Positions 18,037 through 59,546 of a DNA stretch of 64,000 nt are shown one piece after another. The notes under the pieces were generated by a model. The model worked only from the letters and a program-made list of their open reading frames with translations. It was not told the DNA's origin and ran no database searches. How positions within the stretch are numbered: the stretch's first letter is position 1; every line of letters starts with the position of its first letter. The stretch lies in NCBI GenBank assembly GCA_018266845.1, contig JAFDZO010000015.1, positions 1 to 64,000 of the forward strand, read 5' to 3'. The stretch is from Bacteroidota bacterium (GTDB lineage Bacteria > Bacteroidota > Ignavibacteria > Tepidaquicellales > Tepidaquicellaceae). The position numbers were made by a program, and so were the translations under genes.

Positions 18037-18492
18037 ATGGAGAAAGAAAAAACACACGAATGCGGCTCTTCGCGCAGAGATTTTCTGAAAAAATCTCTTA
18101 CAGGAATGGTTCTTGGCGCTGCTGCTTTAAGCTGCGTTAATGTTGAAAAGCTTCTTGCTGCTGCCGAGACTTATCCTATGGCAGAAGGAAGCGCGCCGAA
18201 GACGTTCAATCTTTCCGATTTTCCCGAACTCGGAAATAAAGGCGGTTATGCAATGGTAACAAGCAAGGTTATAGTCATTAATAAAGGCGGAGGAAAATAT
18301 ACTGCGCTTGATATGACCTGTACACACAAAAAACAGCAGGTAGAGTTTGACGGCTCGAAATTTATTTGCCCCGGACACGGCTCTGAATTTGACAAAAGCG
18401 GAAAAGTAACCGAAGGTCCTGCTACAAAGAATCTGAAAAGCTACAAGGTAACTTACAATAAGGAAGAAAATTCCATTACTGTAAATATGTAA
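18037..18492 (+). CDS. Tat-exported Rieske [2Fe-2S] protein
   Basis: The 151-residue protein begins with a twin-arginine signal (SSRRDFLKKSLTGMVLGAAA). The following Cys33 is in a possible lipobox ALSC, so it may be a Tat lipoprotein. The Rieske motifs are complete: C95-T-H97 and C111-P-G-H114-G-S-E-F supply the two Cys and two His cluster ligands. There is no cytochrome b gene nearby, so it is not evidently part of a bc1 complex. The next gene encodes a CxxCH-containing barrel protein, which suggests a shared electron-transfer role, but no partner is proven. Confidence 0.9.
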   Translation: MEKEKTHECGSSRRDFLKKSLTGMVLGAAALSCVNVEKLLAAAETYPMAEGSAPKTFNLSDFPELGNKGGYAMVTSKVIVINKGGGKYTALDMTCTHKKQQVEFDGSKFICPGHGSEFDKSGKVTEGPATKNLKSYKVTYNKEENSITVNM

Positions 18493-18578
18493 TAATGCTT
18501 TCCCGAAGAAGCGCAGCTTTTCATAGGTATAACTGCTCGTCCCCGTCCTTTTTCATTCATTAATTTAATCACACTTAA

Positions 18579-19712
18579 ATGAAGAAACTACTATTTCTTT
18601 CCTTTGTTTTTTCTTTTTTCATTATCTGTCAAAAAGGTTTTTCTTATCCGCGTTTTGTCGCTTATACCGGCGATAAATGTGTTGACTGCCATGTAAATCC
18701 GTCAGGGGCTTCCATGAGAACCGAGTACGGCGTGAAATACTCTAAGCAGGAGCTTGAAATGGATTTTATGAAAAAAGTTTCATCAAAGATGGAATTTTCT
18801 CCTAAGCTCAGTAAAAATATTTCTGTCGGCGGAGATGTAAGGCTTGCTCATTCTGATAACGATTTGAAGACATCCACTTCCGCAAACAAATTACTTGCTA
18901 TGGAAGGGAATTTGTATATAAACGCAAAGATAAACGATAATCTTAGCGTATTCGTTTCTTCAGGGCTGCAAAGTGTTGAGGCTCCTGTAAAAAATGAATT
19001 CTATGGACTGCTTTCAAACCTAACCGATGCAAAAATTTATTTTCAGGCAGGAAAGTTTTCTCCTAATTTCGGAATCAGAATTCCCGACCATCGCGCATAC
19101 CAAAGATTATATTTGCTCAATACGCCTTATGATGCAGATGCGGGGTTGCAGTTAGGAATTTCTCCGGGGGATTTTAATATGAGTATTGGTTTATTTAACG
19201 GGCTTGCAATAGATTTTTTCGATACAGACTTAAATAAAATGTTCGTTGCTTCTGCCGACTATACTTTCCATTTTAGTCAGGATAGAGTTCATCTTAATCT
19301 CGGCGCTTCTGCTTACAATAACCCGTTTAGAGTAGATGACGGGCAGGGCAATTTGATTGATGCCAATCAGAAAGCGTTTAACGGATTTACCAAAATCGGA
19401 TTCTTTGATAAAGTAGCAATTCTCGGTGAAGTGGATTTTCTTGAAAATCAGAGGTCAAACATTCTCAAAAGAGGTATGTACAGCTTTGGCGAGCTAAGTG
19501 TGCGGGTTGCCAGAGGAGTTGAGCTTCGCGGACAATATGAAATGCGCGACCCCAACAGAGACGTTACCGATGACGAAATAAAAAGAATCAGCGGCGGCTT
19601 TGCATTGTTCCCGATGCAGGGAATGGAAGTGGAAGCCATGTACCGCTCGGTAACCGAAACTCCTTCAATGGATAATAACGAGTACCAGTTTATGTTCCAT
19701 TTTTATTTTTAA
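18579..19712 (+). CDS. Outer-membrane beta-barrel protein with a single c-type heme motif
   Basis: This 377-residue exported protein has a signal peptide. Immediately after it comes a heme c site, C34-V-D-C37-H38 within AYTGDKCVDCHVNPSGASMR, a pattern I recognise from a family of putative multidomain cytochrome/porin proteins. The rest (residues ~70-377) alternates polar and hydrophobic positions and ends in FMFHFYF, a terminal aromatic strand typical of outer-membrane barrels. It may move electrons near the outer membrane. The Rieske gene 86 bases upstream is the natural candidate partner. Confidence 0.75.
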   Translation: MKKLLFLSFVFSFFIICQKGFSYPRFVAYTGDKCVDCHVNPSGASMRTEYGVKYSKQELEMDFMKKVSSKMEFSPKLSKNISVGGDVRLAHSDNDLKTSTSANKLLAMEGNLYINAKINDNLSVFVSSGLQSVEAPVKNEFYGLLSNLTDAKIYFQAGKFSPNFGIRIPDHRAYQRLYLLNTPYDADAGLQLGISPGDFNMSIGLFNGLAIDFFDTDLNKMFVASADYTFHFSQDRVHLNLGASAYNNPFRVDDGQGNLIDANQKAFNGFTKIGFFDKVAILGEVDFLENQRSNILKRGMYSFGELSVRVARGVELRGQYEMRDPNRDVTDDEIKRISGGFALFPMQGMEVEAMYRSVTETPSMDNNEYQFMFHFYF

Positions 19713-20432: not shown

Positions 20433-22208
20433 TTACTTTCCCTTTTTTGCTTTCATAACCATTACAACTGAAATTATTGAAATAATCAGCGAGCCGAAGA
20501 TAATACCCATTCCTGTTTTCGATACATTGCCCATAAACCCGGAAGTAGAGCTTTTCACCCTTACTTCACCCTTCATATACGGGTGAGGAGTGCACATATA
20601 GGTATATGTTCCCTGCTTCGTATATCTGAAAGAATATTTTTCTGCATGCGCCAGCATAGGCGATGCCATAACTTCCGGCACGCTTCCATAGCTGATGACA
20701 TTATGAATTCCCGCAAACTCGCCTTCCATATACGCAAACACATCTTCATTCTGCCACGTTACAGTTGTGCCCTCTTCAATTTCAAGAACTTTCGGATAGA
20801 ACGAGTTCCCTATAATTTTTACAGTAACTTCTTTTTCATTTGGTCCGTGAACTTCCGGCGGGTCAACATCGGGCGTGCCAGGCTCAAACGGAGAAACTAC
20901 TCTTGAAACTTTAGATTTTATTTCCGCAAAATCCTTTTCGGAATACTTCGGTCCGTCGGATAAAACTGTTACAGGTGTCTGGGCATTTTTATCGCACTGT
21001 AATATTCCTATTGCTCCTCTGTCAGTTGAACCCACGGCATGAGAGAGCATCAGGTAGCTTCCTTCATCAGGCGGAACGCGGAACTCAACCACCCATGAAT
21101 CCGTCGGTCCGGCTGTAACGCTTTGCCCTCCCGGATAAGAGGCATCGGGATTCCCCTGCCAGTATGCGAAGTCCCATACAATTCCTACTATATGAAATGT
21201 GGAAAGCAGATTAGGTCCCGCATTCAGGAAATAAATTCTTACATAATCGCCGGGCTTTACTTTTATCGGCTCTTCTACATACCTGAAAAGTTTTCCGTTG
21301 AAAGTAGTGTAAAGCGGCTGGCTGTTGATAGCATCTTTTCCGTTTGAATAAAACTCATGCTGTGTAAGATAAATTTCTGCATCGGGTTTTTTATTCAGAA
21401 TCTGTTCCAGCTTGAATTTTTTCTTCGGCTTTACAACCATCATTCCATATTGACCGAAAATAATGTGCATAGGTATTGCGTGCCCGCCGGGCGCGCAGTG
21501 GTATAAATAAACTCCCGGCACCGTGCATCTGAAAATAAGTGATTTGGTTTTACCTGCCTCTATTTTTCCGAGGTATTTTGATGTTTGCGTATAAGCAGAG
21601 TGAATAGAAGCTCCATGGGGAATTGAGCCTTTGTTTACAACGTTAAACTTTACTACATCGCCTTCTTCTACTGTGATAGTTGGTCCCGGAATTGTGCCGT
21701 TTGTTACAAACCCTTTAAACATTACTCCTTTGCCCAGATATGCTTCGCCTTCTGAAAGCTCGATTGTTACTTCCTTATCGAACTTAGAATCCTGCGGCAT
21801 ATAGCTTGTCGGGGGGATGGGCAGCTTTTCGTCTCTGCTGATTACTTCTATAAACTCTTTCTTCGGCTCTGTTTGTTTAGTAGTATCCGAAGGAGCAGGG
21901 GGAGGAGGATATGATGCAGGCAAAAATTTTGCAGTGTTCATTTTATCTACTGCGTCTTTGTATTCAGGGGGAAGCTGGCTTACAAGGCTCGCTGCTTTAT
22001 CGTTTATGCTGCCCTGATTTTTTATCGCAGTTAAAAGCTCTTTTGCAACAAGAGAATTATCTTTGTTTTCAAGAATCGTATTGAAGTAGCTTGTATTGCA
22101 AAACGGACAGGCTTCAGATTCAAAATGCCAGATGAGAAGAGCAGCTGTGAATACGGCAAAAGGAATTGCTATCTTTAAAAACTTCTTACTTCCTTTAAGT
22201 GTTTTCAT
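20433..22208 (-). CDS. NirK-like multicopper protein with fused plastocyanin-type domain
   Basis: Read from the ATG complementary to 22206-22208 (591 residues); an upstream in-frame start would overlap the cytochrome gene. Order: N-terminal membrane segment (~12-28), a C34-P-F-C37 motif, a Pro-rich linker, two cupredoxin domains (~145-260 and ~275-405), a third plastocyanin-like domain (~460-552) and a C-terminal membrane anchor (~566-587). Aligned by eye with copper nitrite reductases, the type 2 copper ligands are H203, H237 and H390, and active-site H339 is kept. Type 1 ligands are H198, C238 and H248. The axial Met position is Q253 and the catalytic Asp position is S201. The third domain has intact ligands H502, C539, H542 and M545. 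It may reduce nitrite or have another copper redox role. Confidence 0.8.
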   Translation of the reverse strand: MKTLKGSKKFLKIAIPFAVFTAALLIWHFESEACPFCNTSYFNTILENKDNSLVAKELLTAIKNQGSINDKAASLVSQLPPEYKDAVDKMNTAKFLPASYPPPPAPSDTTKQTEPKKEFIEVISRDEKLPIPPTSYMPQDSKFDKEVTIELSEGEAYLGKGVMFKGFVTNGTIPGPTITVEEGDVVKFNVVNKGSIPHGASIHSAYTQTSKYLGKIEAGKTKSLIFRCTVPGVYLYHCAPGGHAIPMHIIFGQYGMMVVKPKKKFKLEQILNKKPDAEIYLTQHEFYSNGKDAINSQPLYTTFNGKLFRYVEEPIKVKPGDYVRIYFLNAGPNLLSTFHIVGIVWDFAYWQGNPDASYPGGQSVTAGPTDSWVVEFRVPPDEGSYLMLSHAVGSTDRGAIGILQCDKNAQTPVTVLSDGPKYSEKDFAEIKSKVSRVVSPFEPGTPDVDPPEVHGPNEKEVTVKIIGNSFYPKVLEIEEGTTVTWQNEDVFAYMEGEFAGIHNVISYGSVPEVMASPMLAHAEKYSFRYTKQGTYTYMCTPHPYMKGEVRVKSSTSGFMGNVSKTGMGIIFGSLIISIISVVMVMKAKKGK

Positions 22209-22230: not shown

Positions 22231-22650
22231 TTATTTATCAACTGACCTGAAATATTCCAGAACATTTCTCGCTTCATCCTGCGTGAGGTTTTGGCTTACC
22301 ATAGGCACTTTGTATTCAGCAAAAAGCGAAGCTGCGGCTTGATTTTCTTTTACCATTCCCTCAGGGTTGAGTATCATGTTCATTATCCATTCGGGTTTTC
22401 TTCTCTTGGTTACTCCTTTAAGCGGGGGACCAATGAGCTTCTCATCAATCTTGTGGCAGGAAACACATTTTTGCTCGAAAATTGTTTTCCCTGAAGCAGA
22501 CATCTTGTCATCTATCTTTCCCATATCCAGCTTTACTTCTTTAACCGGACCGACTCCAAGCTCTTCATTATTATTGCTGCAGCCGTTAAAGCTTATTGTT
22601 AAGAAGAAACTTGCTAAGAGGATTGCGGGTATTAATATTTTTATTTTCAT
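22231..22650 (-). CDS. Lipoprotein monoheme cytochrome c
   Basis: The start is placed at the ATG complementary to 22648-22650 (139 residues) because this gives a proper lipoprotein signal with lipobox FNGC (Cys24). A longer frame exists upstream, but it lacks a signal and overlaps ric. The heme c site is C62-V-S-C65-H66, and M117 in KVPMVSQNLT is the likely axial ligand. The fold is a class I cytochrome c. It lies 22 bases upstream of the NirK-like gene and 40 bases after ric, so it is a plausible electron donor to the copper protein at the cytoplasmic membrane's outer face. Confidence 0.88.
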   Translation of the reverse strand: MKIKILIPAILLASFFLTISFNGCSNNNEELGVGPVKEVKLDMGKIDDKMSASGKTIFEQKCVSCHKIDEKLIGPPLKGVTKRRKPEWIMNMILNPEGMVKENQAAASLFAEYKVPMVSQNLTQDEARNVLEYFRSVDK

Positions 22651-22690: not shown

Positions 22691-23413
22691 TTATATGATG
22701 ATTTGATTTCTTTTTTGAAATTCCATTTCCACTGTTCTTGGGAATAAAATGTTGTTTTCAAGATGTATATGAATTTTTAAGTCCTTATAAAACTCTTCAA
22801 GCTCCTGAAACGTTACTCTGAATGTAGTGCACGCATTTGCCGGCGGAGTAAAATTGTTTGTGAGCTGTTTTATCATCTCAATTTCTTCACCTGCTTCCGA
22901 GTGCTCCCGTATCAGCACGCTAATCGGCGTTTCCACATTTCCGAACGGAGGATAAAAATTAGTTCTGCTCTCGGTTTCCATTGCAGCGATATACGGGAAC
23001 AGCACGCTTTCTTCTTTTTCCATGTGCGAGGCAAGGTCGGTTTTGAGGCGCTCGAAATTTTTCTTCACTTCCGAAAGATAAGGAAAATTATCTCCGTGAG
23101 CGTTTACAACTTTTTCTATATGGGCAGAGATGACGGGAAATACTCTTCTTAAATATTCGTGGTGATTAACAATGATGTAGCTGCAAAGAAAAGATAAAGA
23201 CCAGATATTAAATTTTTCGCTTACGTATTCCGTTTCGATTTCTGAAAGCTCTTCCGTGATTTTTTCGGCATTCAGCCCTCTTTCAGAGCAGATGGATGAA
23301 AGCTGTTTTTTTCCTCCGCAGCAGTAGTCGAGATTGTATTTTTCAAGAACCCTTATAGCTCTGAAGTTATTTTTTACTATTTCACCGAGTGTAGTTTCGG
23401 GCGCAATGTTCAT
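22691..23413 (-). CDS. ric: Iron-sulfur cluster repair di-iron protein (RIC/ScdA/YtfE family)
   Basis: A 240-residue protein with the two-part RIC layout. The N-terminal DUF542 domain carries LDYCCGGKKQL with the Cys pair at residues 31-32. The hemerythrin-like domain (residues ~78-230) carries the di-iron ligands in NHHEYLRRVFP, SHMEKEESVLFPY, REHSEAGEE and HIHLENNILFP. RIC proteins help restore iron-sulfur clusters damaged by nitric oxide or oxidants. It is the first gene of the ric-cytochrome-NirK-like operon, and a TTGAC-N4-GTCAA palindrome sits 53 bases upstream of its start. Confidence 0.94.
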   Translation of the reverse strand: MNIAPETTLGEIVKNNFRAIRVLEKYNLDYCCGGKKQLSSICSERGLNAEKITEELSEIETEYVSEKFNIWSLSFLCSYIIVNHHEYLRRVFPVISAHIEKVVNAHGDNFPYLSEVKKNFERLKTDLASHMEKEESVLFPYIAAMETESRTNFYPPFGNVETPISVLIREHSEAGEEIEMIKQLTNNFTPPANACTTFRVTFQELEEFYKDLKIHIHLENNILFPRTVEMEFQKRNQIII

Positions 23414-23465: not shown

Positions 23466-23479
23466 TTGACTTAAGTCAA
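23466..23479. promoter_or_regulatory. FNR/HcpR-like operator TTGAC-TTAA-GTCAA upstream of ric
   Basis: The sequence TTGACTTAAGTCAA is a perfect 14-bp palindrome of the Crp/Fnr half-site type. Its centre lies about 59 bases upstream of the ric start codon, and a TATGTA at 23437-23432 on the minus strand could be the -10 element. The same half-sites with the same spacing occur upstream of nrfH at 59533-59546. Confidence 0.72.
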
Positions 23480-25319: not shown

Positions 25320-26006
25320 TTACTCCGTCATCTTCTTCAGCTTTGCTGCATTCTTTATGATAAAAGATTTTCCTGAAACCTCTATTACTCCTTCTTCCTG
25401 AAGTTTTTTTAATGTGCGGGAAAGCGTTTCGGGGATTGTGCCGAGAAGCGAAGCCATATCGTATCGGCTGATTTCAATTTCAAACTCCTCAATACCCGCT
25501 TTTTCGTACTCGGTAAAAATATATCCGGCGACACGCTTGTGAACATCTCGCATTGTGAGATTTTCAATCTGAAAATTAAGCTGCCTGTTTTTCTTTGAAA
25601 TACTTGCAAGCATTTTCAGGCACAGGTTTACATCGTCTTTGAAAAACTGATGTATTCTATCGGCGGGAATATAAAGAAGCTCGGTGTAATCTTCCATTGC
25701 CATTGCGTTTGCAGGATAGGTAAGCTGTTTTGTTTCATCGGTGAATTTTTCGAAGAGAGGCACTTCTGCAAATGAACCGTACGGGTGAATAATGGTGAGT
25801 ATCTGCTCCCTGCCCTCTTTGGAGATTTTATAAATTTTTACGGAGCCGTCAAGAACAGTATAGGGTCCGCCGAAAAGCTCGGACTCAAAAAAAATTATAT
25901 CGCCCTTGCCGAACTTTTTTTTGCTGACAAACGATTTTACTTTTTCAAGCTGCTCATCGCTCATCTCGGCAAAAAGAAAAACCTTTTTTAATATTTCATT
26001 ATCCAT
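25320..26006 (-). CDS. Crp/Fnr-family transcriptional regulator, FNR-like recognition helix
   Basis: A 228-residue regulator with an N-terminal cyclic-nucleotide-binding-type beta roll (residues ~10-125), a dimerisation helix (~126-160) and a winged HTH (~170-220). The recognition helix E193-T-L-S196-R197 has the E-x-x-S-R pattern of FNR, which reads TTGA-type half-sites. The protein has one cysteine (C129) and lacks the N-terminal cysteines of FNR, so it is more like DNR/HcpR-type nitric-oxide-responsive members. The TTGAC-N4-GTCAA palindromes at 23466 and 59533 are its likely targets (inference). It overlaps the upstream SemiSWEET gene by 8 bases. Confidence 0.88.
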   Translation of the reverse strand: MDNEILKKVFLFAEMSDEQLEKVKSFVSKKKFGKGDIIFFESELFGGPYTVLDGSVKIYKISKEGREQILTIIHPYGSFAEVPLFEKFTDETKQLTYPANAMAMEDYTELLYIPADRIHQFFKDDVNLCLKMLASISKKNRQLNFQIENLTMRDVHKRVAGYIFTEYEKAGIEEFEIEISRYDMASLLGTIPETLSRTLKKLQEEGVIEVSGKSFIIKNAAKLKKMTE

Positions 26007-57437: not shown

Positions 57438-58928
57438 TTATTTATTCTTCATATCATAGTTTACCGGACCCTGTCTTTCTGTTGCTGTTTTATCCCATAC
57501 CGGAACTGTATTCGTTAAGAATGCAGCCTTTTCTTCTCTTAGTTTCTTCATATCAAGCCCGATATATGCCTGCGCTTTTTCCTTTGTCGAAACATCAGGC
57601 ATCTGAATAGGAACTTTTACTCCTAAACTGACTAATAAGTTAGTTAAAAGAACTCTTGCTTCTTCGGATTTTTGTATAGAAGTACCGAGTATTCTTGCGC
57701 TTTCGAGCGGGGCGTGGAAGCTGCCGCCGACACTGGCTGAAACGAAATCCCATCTCCATTGAGCGTGTCTAATCAGTTTTAAAATCGGCTTCATTTGTTC
57801 TTCGGTTGCTCCATTTTCCCAAGCAGTTTTTGCTTCGATATGGGCTTTCACGAGTGTTTTAGTCGCTAAGTCAGATAGTTCAAGAACTTTATCCTGTCTG
57901 TCGTTTACGTTCTGCCTTAGTTTGTCTTCACTTTCTCTGTGGCAGACCTGGCAAGAATTTGCAATATTATTTAAAGGACTTTGAATCTTATGGTCTGTGA
58001 ATTTTACACCGCCTTCACTCTTATAAGGCATATGACACTCTGCACAGGAAAGACCACGCTCATAGTGAATTCCCATTCTAAAAAGTTCAAAATCCGGGTG
58101 CTGTGCTTTTATAACCGGGGTTTTACTGAGTGAGTTTACAAAATCAACATGCTCGTTTTCATCATAATATTTTTCAATATCTTCAACTGTAAATCCTTTA
58201 TCCCAAGGGAACGTCAAATATTTTTCTGTTTTGCCTTTGAAGTAATACTCAACGTGGCACTGAGCGCATACAAGCGAGCGCATTTCCTGATGAGTAGCGT
58301 TCTTAATATCCTTTCCCTGCCTTTCAAAGGCTTCGATTAAAGCAGGTCTGGTAATACGAAGATTCATCGTTTTCGGGTCGTGGCAGTCCTGGCATCCGAT
58401 TGGATTTACAATTTCTGCTCCCAAATCTTTCCATTGTGATTTATAAAATTCAGCTGCGCCTTTTTGGTTCATTACGCGAGGTACATCAGTGCTTTTGCAA
58501 GCCCAGCATGTTCCCGGCTGAGGCACGTCTGTTCTTAGGGTTTGTCTTATATCCCTGATAGCGTAATAGTGTCCTCTTGCCTGATTATAATCGCGTGAGA
58601 ATGCATATCCCGCCCAAAGAACAACAAAGTCAGGGTATTTTTCCAGCAAGTCAATTGTATGTGAGCCTGCATGTTTGCTTGCGAATGAAGTATCGAGTGT
58701 AGAAAGATATGATTCGTATTCGCGGGGATAATTTTCCCCCCATTTTTCGTTTCTTGGTTCCCAGTCCGAAATGGGTTTAACATTTTGAACTATCTGGTTG
58801 GATTCCTGTCTCCTTTCGACTATGCTGCTTCCAAGTACGCCGAGGAGAAAAACAACGGCGATTGTTACAACGTAAAGTACCCATCCAACCCAGGGCTTTT
58901 CTTTTACTAATTCGGAGATTTTTTTCAT
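57438..58928 (-). CDS. nrfA: Cytochrome c nitrite reductase catalytic subunit NrfA
   Basis: A 496-residue pentaheme enzyme. The active-site heme has the rare lysine-ligated motif C-W-A-C-K (in GTCWACKSTDVPR). Four ordinary sites follow: GCQDCH, VCAQCH, SCAECH and SCQVCH. Catalytic residues are in the VCAQCHVEYYF region (Tyr) and later His/Arg positions. An N-terminal membrane segment (residues ~14-35, WVGWVLYVVTIAVVFLLGVLG) suggests an uncleaved anchor or signal. NrfA reduces nitrite to ammonium with six electrons in the periplasm. NrfH is encoded 20 bases upstream. Confidence 0.97.
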   Translation of the reverse strand: MKKISELVKEKPWVGWVLYVVTIAVVFLLGVLGSSIVERRQESNQIVQNVKPISDWEPRNEKWGENYPREYESYLSTLDTSFASKHAGSHTIDLLEKYPDFVVLWAGYAFSRDYNQARGHYYAIRDIRQTLRTDVPQPGTCWACKSTDVPRVMNQKGAAEFYKSQWKDLGAEIVNPIGCQDCHDPKTMNLRITRPALIEAFERQGKDIKNATHQEMRSLVCAQCHVEYYFKGKTEKYLTFPWDKGFTVEDIEKYYDENEHVDFVNSLSKTPVIKAQHPDFELFRMGIHYERGLSCAECHMPYKSEGGVKFTDHKIQSPLNNIANSCQVCHRESEDKLRQNVNDRQDKVLELSDLATKTLVKAHIEAKTAWENGATEEQMKPILKLIRHAQWRWDFVSASVGGSFHAPLESARILGTSIQKSEEARVLLTNLLVSLGVKVPIQMPDVSTKEKAQAYIGLDMKKLREEKAAFLTNTVPVWDKTATERQGPVNYDMKNK

Positions 58929-58948
58929 ATAATATTATGTTAACTTTT

Positions 58949-59497
58949 TTATTTAATTAACGGAGATAACTTAGGAACTCTTGCATTAGGAAATGAGCTT
59001 AAACTGTTCACAGTTCCGTGAGGAGTTTCTTCATGGCATTTCCAGCAGTATTCATCTTTGTAAGTATTGTGAAGGCTTGTATTTCCTACAAGCGCTGTGT
59101 GGCATCTGACACAGTTACTTTGTACTACATCCTTTCCTGCCTGCTTGATTCGTATCACCTGGTCTTCAAGACGGAGCGTAAATATAGTTGAGTGGCGTAA
59201 ACCGTCTGTTGCTTTAAAAAAATATTTATTGAAAACATTATTGTGAGGAACATGGCAATCGTTGCAGGTTGTTACACGCCCGTGCGAGCTATGCTGCCAT
59301 GATGCGTATTGTGGAAACATAACATGGCAATTTATGCAGGTTTCAGGATTATCGGATAAGTATGAGGCTGCGTTGCCTATATAGAAAATCCATAAGATGA
59401 ATGCGGTGAGAATACCGGAGATTACAATTACAGGCACTTTCCATTTTTTAGGAGGCGCTGTTAAATCAATAAATCGGTCAATTTTTTTCTTTAGCAT
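58949..59497 (-). CDS. nrfH: Cytochrome c nitrite reductase small subunit NrfH
   Basis: A 182-residue NapC/NirT-family cytochrome with one N-terminal membrane helix (residues ~20-42) and four heme motifs: TCINCHVMFPQYASWQHSSHG, TCNDCHVPH, NCVRCH and YCWKCHEETPHG. The Met in CHVMF may ligate the first heme. It takes electrons from menaquinol and hands them to NrfA. It is the first gene of nrfH-nrfA-porin. A Crp/Fnr-type palindrome lies 36 bases upstream of its start codon. Confidence 0.95.
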   Translation of the reverse strand: MLKKKIDRFIDLTAPPKKWKVPVIVISGILTAFILWIFYIGNAASYLSDNPETCINCHVMFPQYASWQHSSHGRVTTCNDCHVPHNNVFNKYFFKATDGLRHSTIFTLRLEDQVIRIKQAGKDVVQSNCVRCHTALVGNTSLHNTYKDEYCWKCHEETPHGTVNSLSSFPNARVPKLSPLIK

Positions 59498-59532: not shown

Positions 59533-59546
59533 TTGACTAAAGTCAA
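59533..59546. promoter_or_regulatory. FNR/HcpR-like operator TTGAC-TAAA-GTCAA upstream of nrfH
   Basis: The sequence TTGACTAAAGTCAA has the same half-sites and 4-base spacer as the site at 23466-23479. Its centre lies about 42 bases from the nrfH start codon, so activation from the common -41.5 position would imply a very short or absent leader. Confidence 0.72.

Follow-up and report, generated by a model that had tools for sequence, protein, structure and literature searches.

A three-domain NirK with serine and glutamine at the Asp98 and Met150 positions, a probable TsNirK-type nitrite reductase of an Ignavibacteria genome

Our analysis of a 64,000-nucleotide stretch of DNA (the window, taken as a whole) suggests that the gene at 20433-22208 most likely encodes a TsNirK-type nitrite reductase with three coppers, anchored to the membrane in the periplasm, that reduces nitrite to NO; we give this reading a probability of about 0.87. 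The Ser/Gln oddity on which the original prediction dwelt is real, yet it is not new: it is the trademark of a widespread NirK branch with a known crystal structure. Indeed, the surprise is already explained, because TsNirK, a copper nitrite reductase of Thermus scotoductus SA-01 solved as PDB 6hbe, has the Ser, the Gln and the third domain and reduces nitrite (PMC6400189). The possible novelty may instead lie beyond that prediction, in the two ends of the protein, with a membrane anchor at the C-terminus and a CxxCN module at the N-terminus.

Active-site residues and the clade that shares them

The gene and its parts are as follows.
20433-22208, minus strand: SerCAT/Gln-type three-domain NirK, 591 aa (translation, alignment, structure comparison)
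22110-22178, minus strand: signal peptide or N-terminal hydrophobic segment, residues 11-33 (sequence; model helix 7-28)
22008-22109, minus strand: CxxCN module, residues 34-67 (CPFCNTSYFNTILENKDNSLVAKELLTAIKNQ..), at the predicted mature N-terminus (motif in clade members)
20994-21782, minus strand: two-domain NirK core, residues 143-405, with T1CuN and T2Cu (profile and structure matches)
21606-21608, minus strand: codon for S201, at the AspCAT (D98) position (alignment)
21450-21452, minus strand: codon for Q253, at the type 1 axial Met150 position (alignment)
20553-20837, minus strand: C-terminal cupredoxin (amicyanin-like T1CuC), residues 458-552 (PF00127, 1.8e-13; amicyanin model, 5.7e-17)
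20439-20507, minus strand: C-terminal transmembrane helix, residues 568-590, then a lysine-rich tail (model; clade tails)

The start of nirK was placed at 22208 and not at the first ATG of the open reading frame (22277), because the latter would run into the final part of the cytochrome c gene upstream, whose stop is at 22231. In an alignment with TsNirK and six homologs of the same order, the sensing loop reads H198-G-A-S201-I-H203 and the Cys-His/type 1 segment reads H237-C238-A-P-G-G-H-A-I-P-M-H248-I-I-F-G-Q253, while domain II provides H339 as HisCAT, V341 as ValCAT and H390 as the third type 2 His. The protein has the type 2 His triad (H203/H237/H390), the type 1 ligands H198, C238 and H248 and the HisCAT of ordinary NirKs, in agreement with the histidines and the numbering given in the original prediction, but it has S201 and Q253 in place of AspCAT and the axial Met. 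The prediction had named as its own refutation an Asp or Met elsewhere in the site; none was found in either site in these gap-free columns. The C-terminal blue-copper domain is likewise complete as predicted, with the full type 1 ligand set H502, C539, H542 and M545 in addition to the PF00127 match. With the TIGR02376 NirK model the protein scored 138.2 bits, below the curated cut-off of 296.3; such Asp/Met-based models under-score Ser/Gln NirKs.

A phmmer search against solved structures gave 6hbe with an E-value of 4.5e-118, followed by a next match at 3.4e-39, and the 6hbe match extends through the third domain. Moreover, an AlphaFold2 monomer model built from 40 aligned homologs (pLDDT 82) predicts the TsNirK-type fold, with Z 46.1 over 403 residues at 2.0 Å to 6hbe, the next NirK reaching Z 29.9 over 265 residues; the comparison was made as a VIA second look at Foldseek candidates. 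In TsNirK, Ser78 is the SerCAT and replaces the catalytic Asp in an active nitrite reductase (kcat 65 s-1, Km 27 uM), Gln130 is the axial ligand, and the C-terminal type 1 copper lies 14 Å from the first, with Glu385 in the connecting path (PMC6400189). In the window protein, S201 stands as SerCAT in the His-X4-His sensing loop, Q253 aligns with Gln130 and so would be the axial ligand, and the C-terminal His2-Cys-Met cupredoxin would be connected by E497 toward T1CuN.

Judged from the aligned sequences, the Ser/Gln pair is a clade hallmark and not an isolated oddity. NirK relatives were present in 31 of the 149 genomes surveyed in the class. Seven of these (the window and matches at 61-67% identity), all from the order of the window, have Ser/Gln in every case, whereas the other 24 reach 29-37% identity, and those whose sequence was read have the Asp/Met site, mostly with a C-terminal c-type cytochrome. 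A scan of genome contigs yielded 503 relatives; the best 80 of the 503, which were kept, come by their record titles from Ignavibacteria, Bacteroidetes, Balneolaceae, Verrucomicrobia/Opitutia, Kiritimatiellae, Planctomycetota, Myxococcales and Gammaproteobacteria. In an alignment of 77 sequences from the best-scoring relatives, with identities down to about 45%, none departs from S201, Q253, V341, Q362, E497 or any of the eleven copper ligands. The conservation of the Gln in the 80-locus set is partly selected because one of the two gathering patterns (GQ[YF]GM) contains it, whereas the Ser is in neither; the survey of the class, which is free of this bias, showed both residues in all seven close relatives. 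Since these loci are the best-scoring relatives, distant relatives with intermediate residues could be missed. The position of TsNirK Thr240 is more variable (Thr in 57 sequences, Ser in 20). In a maximum-likelihood tree, 75 Ser/Gln proteins stand apart from 22 ordinary NirKs with support of 100/100, and no relative was found in the viral contigs scanned.

Chance or misalignment behind the two residues is ruled out by the invariant and gap-free columns of the 77-sequence alignment. The usual residues being Asp and Met, Ser and Gln could also be read as the decay of a dispensable gene; this degenerate-gene reading has a negligible probability and is refuted in substance, because all 77 homologs retain both. 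Moreover, the frame is open, the ligands are intact, and an operon and a promoter box are present. The Ser/Gln NirK may rather be regarded as a stable alternative solution to nitrite reduction and not a one-off, because both residues are kept together across many phyla. The motifs HG[AVGML]S[IVLF]H and HC[AS]PGGHxIxxHxxxxQ serve to identify the corresponding genes.

Close relatives of TsNirK also occur on Thermus thermophilus plasmids. On the NAR1 plasmid, a TsNirK-like nirK lacks its 5' end beside an IS982 insertion, and a truncated nirK at IS982 has likewise been described there (PMC7694296). Two Ser/Gln nirK genes were seen per bin in an Opitutales and in a Myxococcales MAG, possibly as paralogs or through mixed bins.

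Gene neighbourhood and the fate of nitric oxide

Upstream of nirK and at a second locus of the window lie the following features.
22231-22650, minus strand: lipoprotein-like c-type cytochrome (CVSCHK) of the nirK operon, candidate electron donor (PF00034, 2.9e-11)
22691-23413, minus strand: RIC/ScdA/YtfE iron-sulfur cluster repair di-iron protein, first gene of the operon (TIGR03652, 230.7 bits; NCBIfam cut-off 204.7)
23466-23479, palindrome: exact FNR/DNR box TTGACTTAAGTCAA, 53 bp before the RIC start codon (palindrome scan)
25320-26006, minus strand: Crp/Fnr-family regulator, a candidate for acting at the box (family matches)
57438-59497, minus strand: nrfHA, with NrfH at 58949-59497 and NrfA at 57438-58928 (PF02335, 7.8e-174; PF03264, 3.1e-12)
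59533-59546, palindrome: exact FNR/DNR box TTGACTAAAGTCAA, 36 bp before the nrfH start (palindrome scan)

The gene order on the minus strand is RIC, then the c-type cytochrome, then nirK. Electrons would probably come from this cytochrome and enter at the copper of the C-terminal cupredoxin (H502/C539/H542/M545). From there, E497 would lead them to the Gln-ligated type 1 copper (H198/C238/H248/Q253), and the C238-H237 bridge would carry them on to the site of nitrite reduction, the type 2 copper (H203/H237/H390). There, S201 would stand in for Asp98 together with H339 and Q362, handling the bound water and protons. As the working form of the enzyme we would expect a trimer, the TsNirK type being a homotrimer whose type 2 site lies between subunits.

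Exact FNR/DNR sites number three in the window versus about 0.6 expected, the third being inside a gene. Of the 34 exact sites at related loci, 17 lie between -150 and +60 relative to the start of nirK or of its operon, versus 0.74 expected. The P value of this enrichment is not to be taken literally, as related loci do not count as independent and promoter regions make a biased background. Nevertheless, the placement of the boxes at these starts is clear: they were found there in 14 relatives, and none of four control palindromes was so placed at the related loci. The boxes at RIC-cytochrome c-nirK and at nrfHA suggest, on sequence grounds, shared FNR/DNR-type control of two nitrite reductases. 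RIC is also close to nirK in 10 loci, the window included. Moreover, a gene recognised from its sequence as qNOR directly precedes nirK in two Bacteroidales/Prolixibacteraceae loci, and the Thermus nirK is flanked by a DUF542 protein, an Rrf2 regulator and a cytochrome c. Elsewhere in the window, 18037-19712 holds a Rieske protein with a twin-arginine signal and then a porin-like protein (weak LbtU match) with a CxxCH heme motif (CVDCH) at its N-terminus.

These observations bear on the substrate, for which the original prediction had offered either a nitrite reductase with altered chemistry or an enzyme with another substrate. The first alternative stands, TsNirK being active with Ser for Asp. 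According to the second, this would be a NirK-fold enzyme acting mainly on oxygen or hydroxylamine or in NO oxidation, in which the loss of Asp98 removed efficient nitrite reduction. Indeed, substitution of Asp98 lowers the activity of ordinary NirKs (PMC6400189), a NirK-fold protein with a C-terminal cupredoxin from Nitrosopumilus (9cck, Z 28.7) is named a multicopper oxidase, and an NO reductase was not found in the host genome. However, TsNirK, with an equal site, is a faster nitrite reductase than AxNir carrying Asp98 mutations (PMC6400189), and nirK stands in one gene order with RIC, behind a box similar to that of nrfHA. Another main substrate is thus very unlikely and finds no support, because the context is NO-related (RIC, cytochrome c and FNR/DNR box here; qNOR and Rrf2 in relatives) and the catalytic residues match those of TsNirK almost one for one.

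If the protein is a nitrite reductase of the TsNirK type, its place in the metabolism of the cell is a further question. The host genome (3.5 Mb, 98% complete) encodes NrfAH; its matches to the heme-copper oxidase family are aa3 and cbb3 oxidases only, and a qNOR query that recovered its targets in two positive-control genomes had no match. Searches of this genome likewise yielded no NirS, NarG or Hcp, and no NosZ above the cut-off. In six genomes of the same order with a Ser/Gln nirK, qNOR had no match either, the heme-copper family matches being aa3/cbb3-like by score and length. NO formed from nitrite here is therefore probably not respired to N2O by the same cell, as no NO reductase was detected in the genome. 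NrfA also reduces NO, and NrfA and RIC repair would be local safeguards against it. Equally compatible with our main reading is a role of the same reaction in nitrite or redox disposal or in NO supply, beside ammonification by NrfAH and not in denitrification. The gene content of the host and of the six relatives favors this role, and so does NirK clade 5 (Thioalkalivibrio, Caldalkalibacillus, Thermus), whose genomes often encode NrfA according to Pold et al. 2024 (PMC10999283). However, a divergent NO reductase could escape the search, and qNOR does adjoin a Ser/Gln nirK in the two genomes mentioned above, so that we hold the chances of such a role to be about even. In either case, a Ser/Gln nirK beside NrfAH, with no NO reductase detected, bears on which organisms release NO.

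The CxxCN module and the membrane anchor

Neither the module (residues 34-67) nor the transmembrane helix (residues 568-590) was part of the original prediction. The N-terminal 125 aa, module included, have no Pfam match. The consensus of the module, over about 35 residues, is A-C-x-x-C-N-x2-F-x2-E-L-x3-R-x2-[ST]-L-x-G-x-E-L-L-A-A-x2-N-Q, and the motif, which is kept across phyla, was found in 68 of 76 clade members. A profile HMM of the module gave three matches only in 100 genomes, all at Ser/Gln nirK loci, and nothing in the sampled genomes with an ordinary NirK. At loci L006 and L007/L050 there is no fused module, and a separate secreted ORF of 114-118 aa that contains it lies just upstream of nirK. 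This argues that the module works together with the Ser/Gln NirK, because it is fused in some cases and encoded by an adjoining gene in others. It is absent from the Thioalkalivibrio loci and from the TsNirK chain of the solved structure, and a full-text literature search, with most subscription papers outside its scope, gave no account of such an N-terminal module.

The module might be a new dedicated partner of SerCAT-NirK, mostly fused and otherwise a separate secreted upstream protein, which could load or gate the enzyme at the membrane through copper delivery or through thiol-based redox or NO sensing; we put this forward tentatively, copper loading or a thiol switch being a guess from the CxxC. 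At the other end of the protein, the predicted transmembrane helix and the lysines would tether the enzyme to the inner membrane, on its outer side. A hydrophobic C-terminal tail is present in 59 of 76 clade members.

Comparison with known systems

What speaks against our main reading is the score below the TIGR02376 cut-off, a product with no obvious respiratory sink, since no NO reductase was found in the genome, and a TsNirK that has neither module nor anchor. Nevertheless, TsNirK is the closest known system. Its Ser78, Gln130 and Glu385 correspond to S201, Q253 and E497, both proteins have ValCAT and an amicyanin-like C-terminal cupredoxin, and they share 47% identity over the common part and an equal predicted fold. 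In contrast, the CxxCN module and the C-terminal membrane helix belong to the window protein only, Ser363 takes the position of TsNirK Thr240, and the host genome is one with neither NirS nor a detected NOR. In a full-text literature search with most subscription papers outside its scope, SerCAT matched the TsNirK paper only.

The ordinary NirKs of Geobacillus and Nitrosomonas europaea and AniA share with the window protein the two-domain core, the type 2 His triad, the Cys-His bridge and HisCAT, but they have Asp98 and Met150, are mostly without a C-terminal cupredoxin and reach about 31-33% identity. The comparison with stellacyanin made in the original prediction was apt, as a His2-Cys-Gln type 1 site is also reported for TsNirK; stellacyanin, however, is a small electron carrier without type 2 copper. 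Finally, NirK clade 5 (PMC10999283) holds genera whose NirKs group with the window protein, and NrfA is encoded in the window genome too, whereas the accessible part of that account mentions neither Ignavibacteria nor the CxxCN module.
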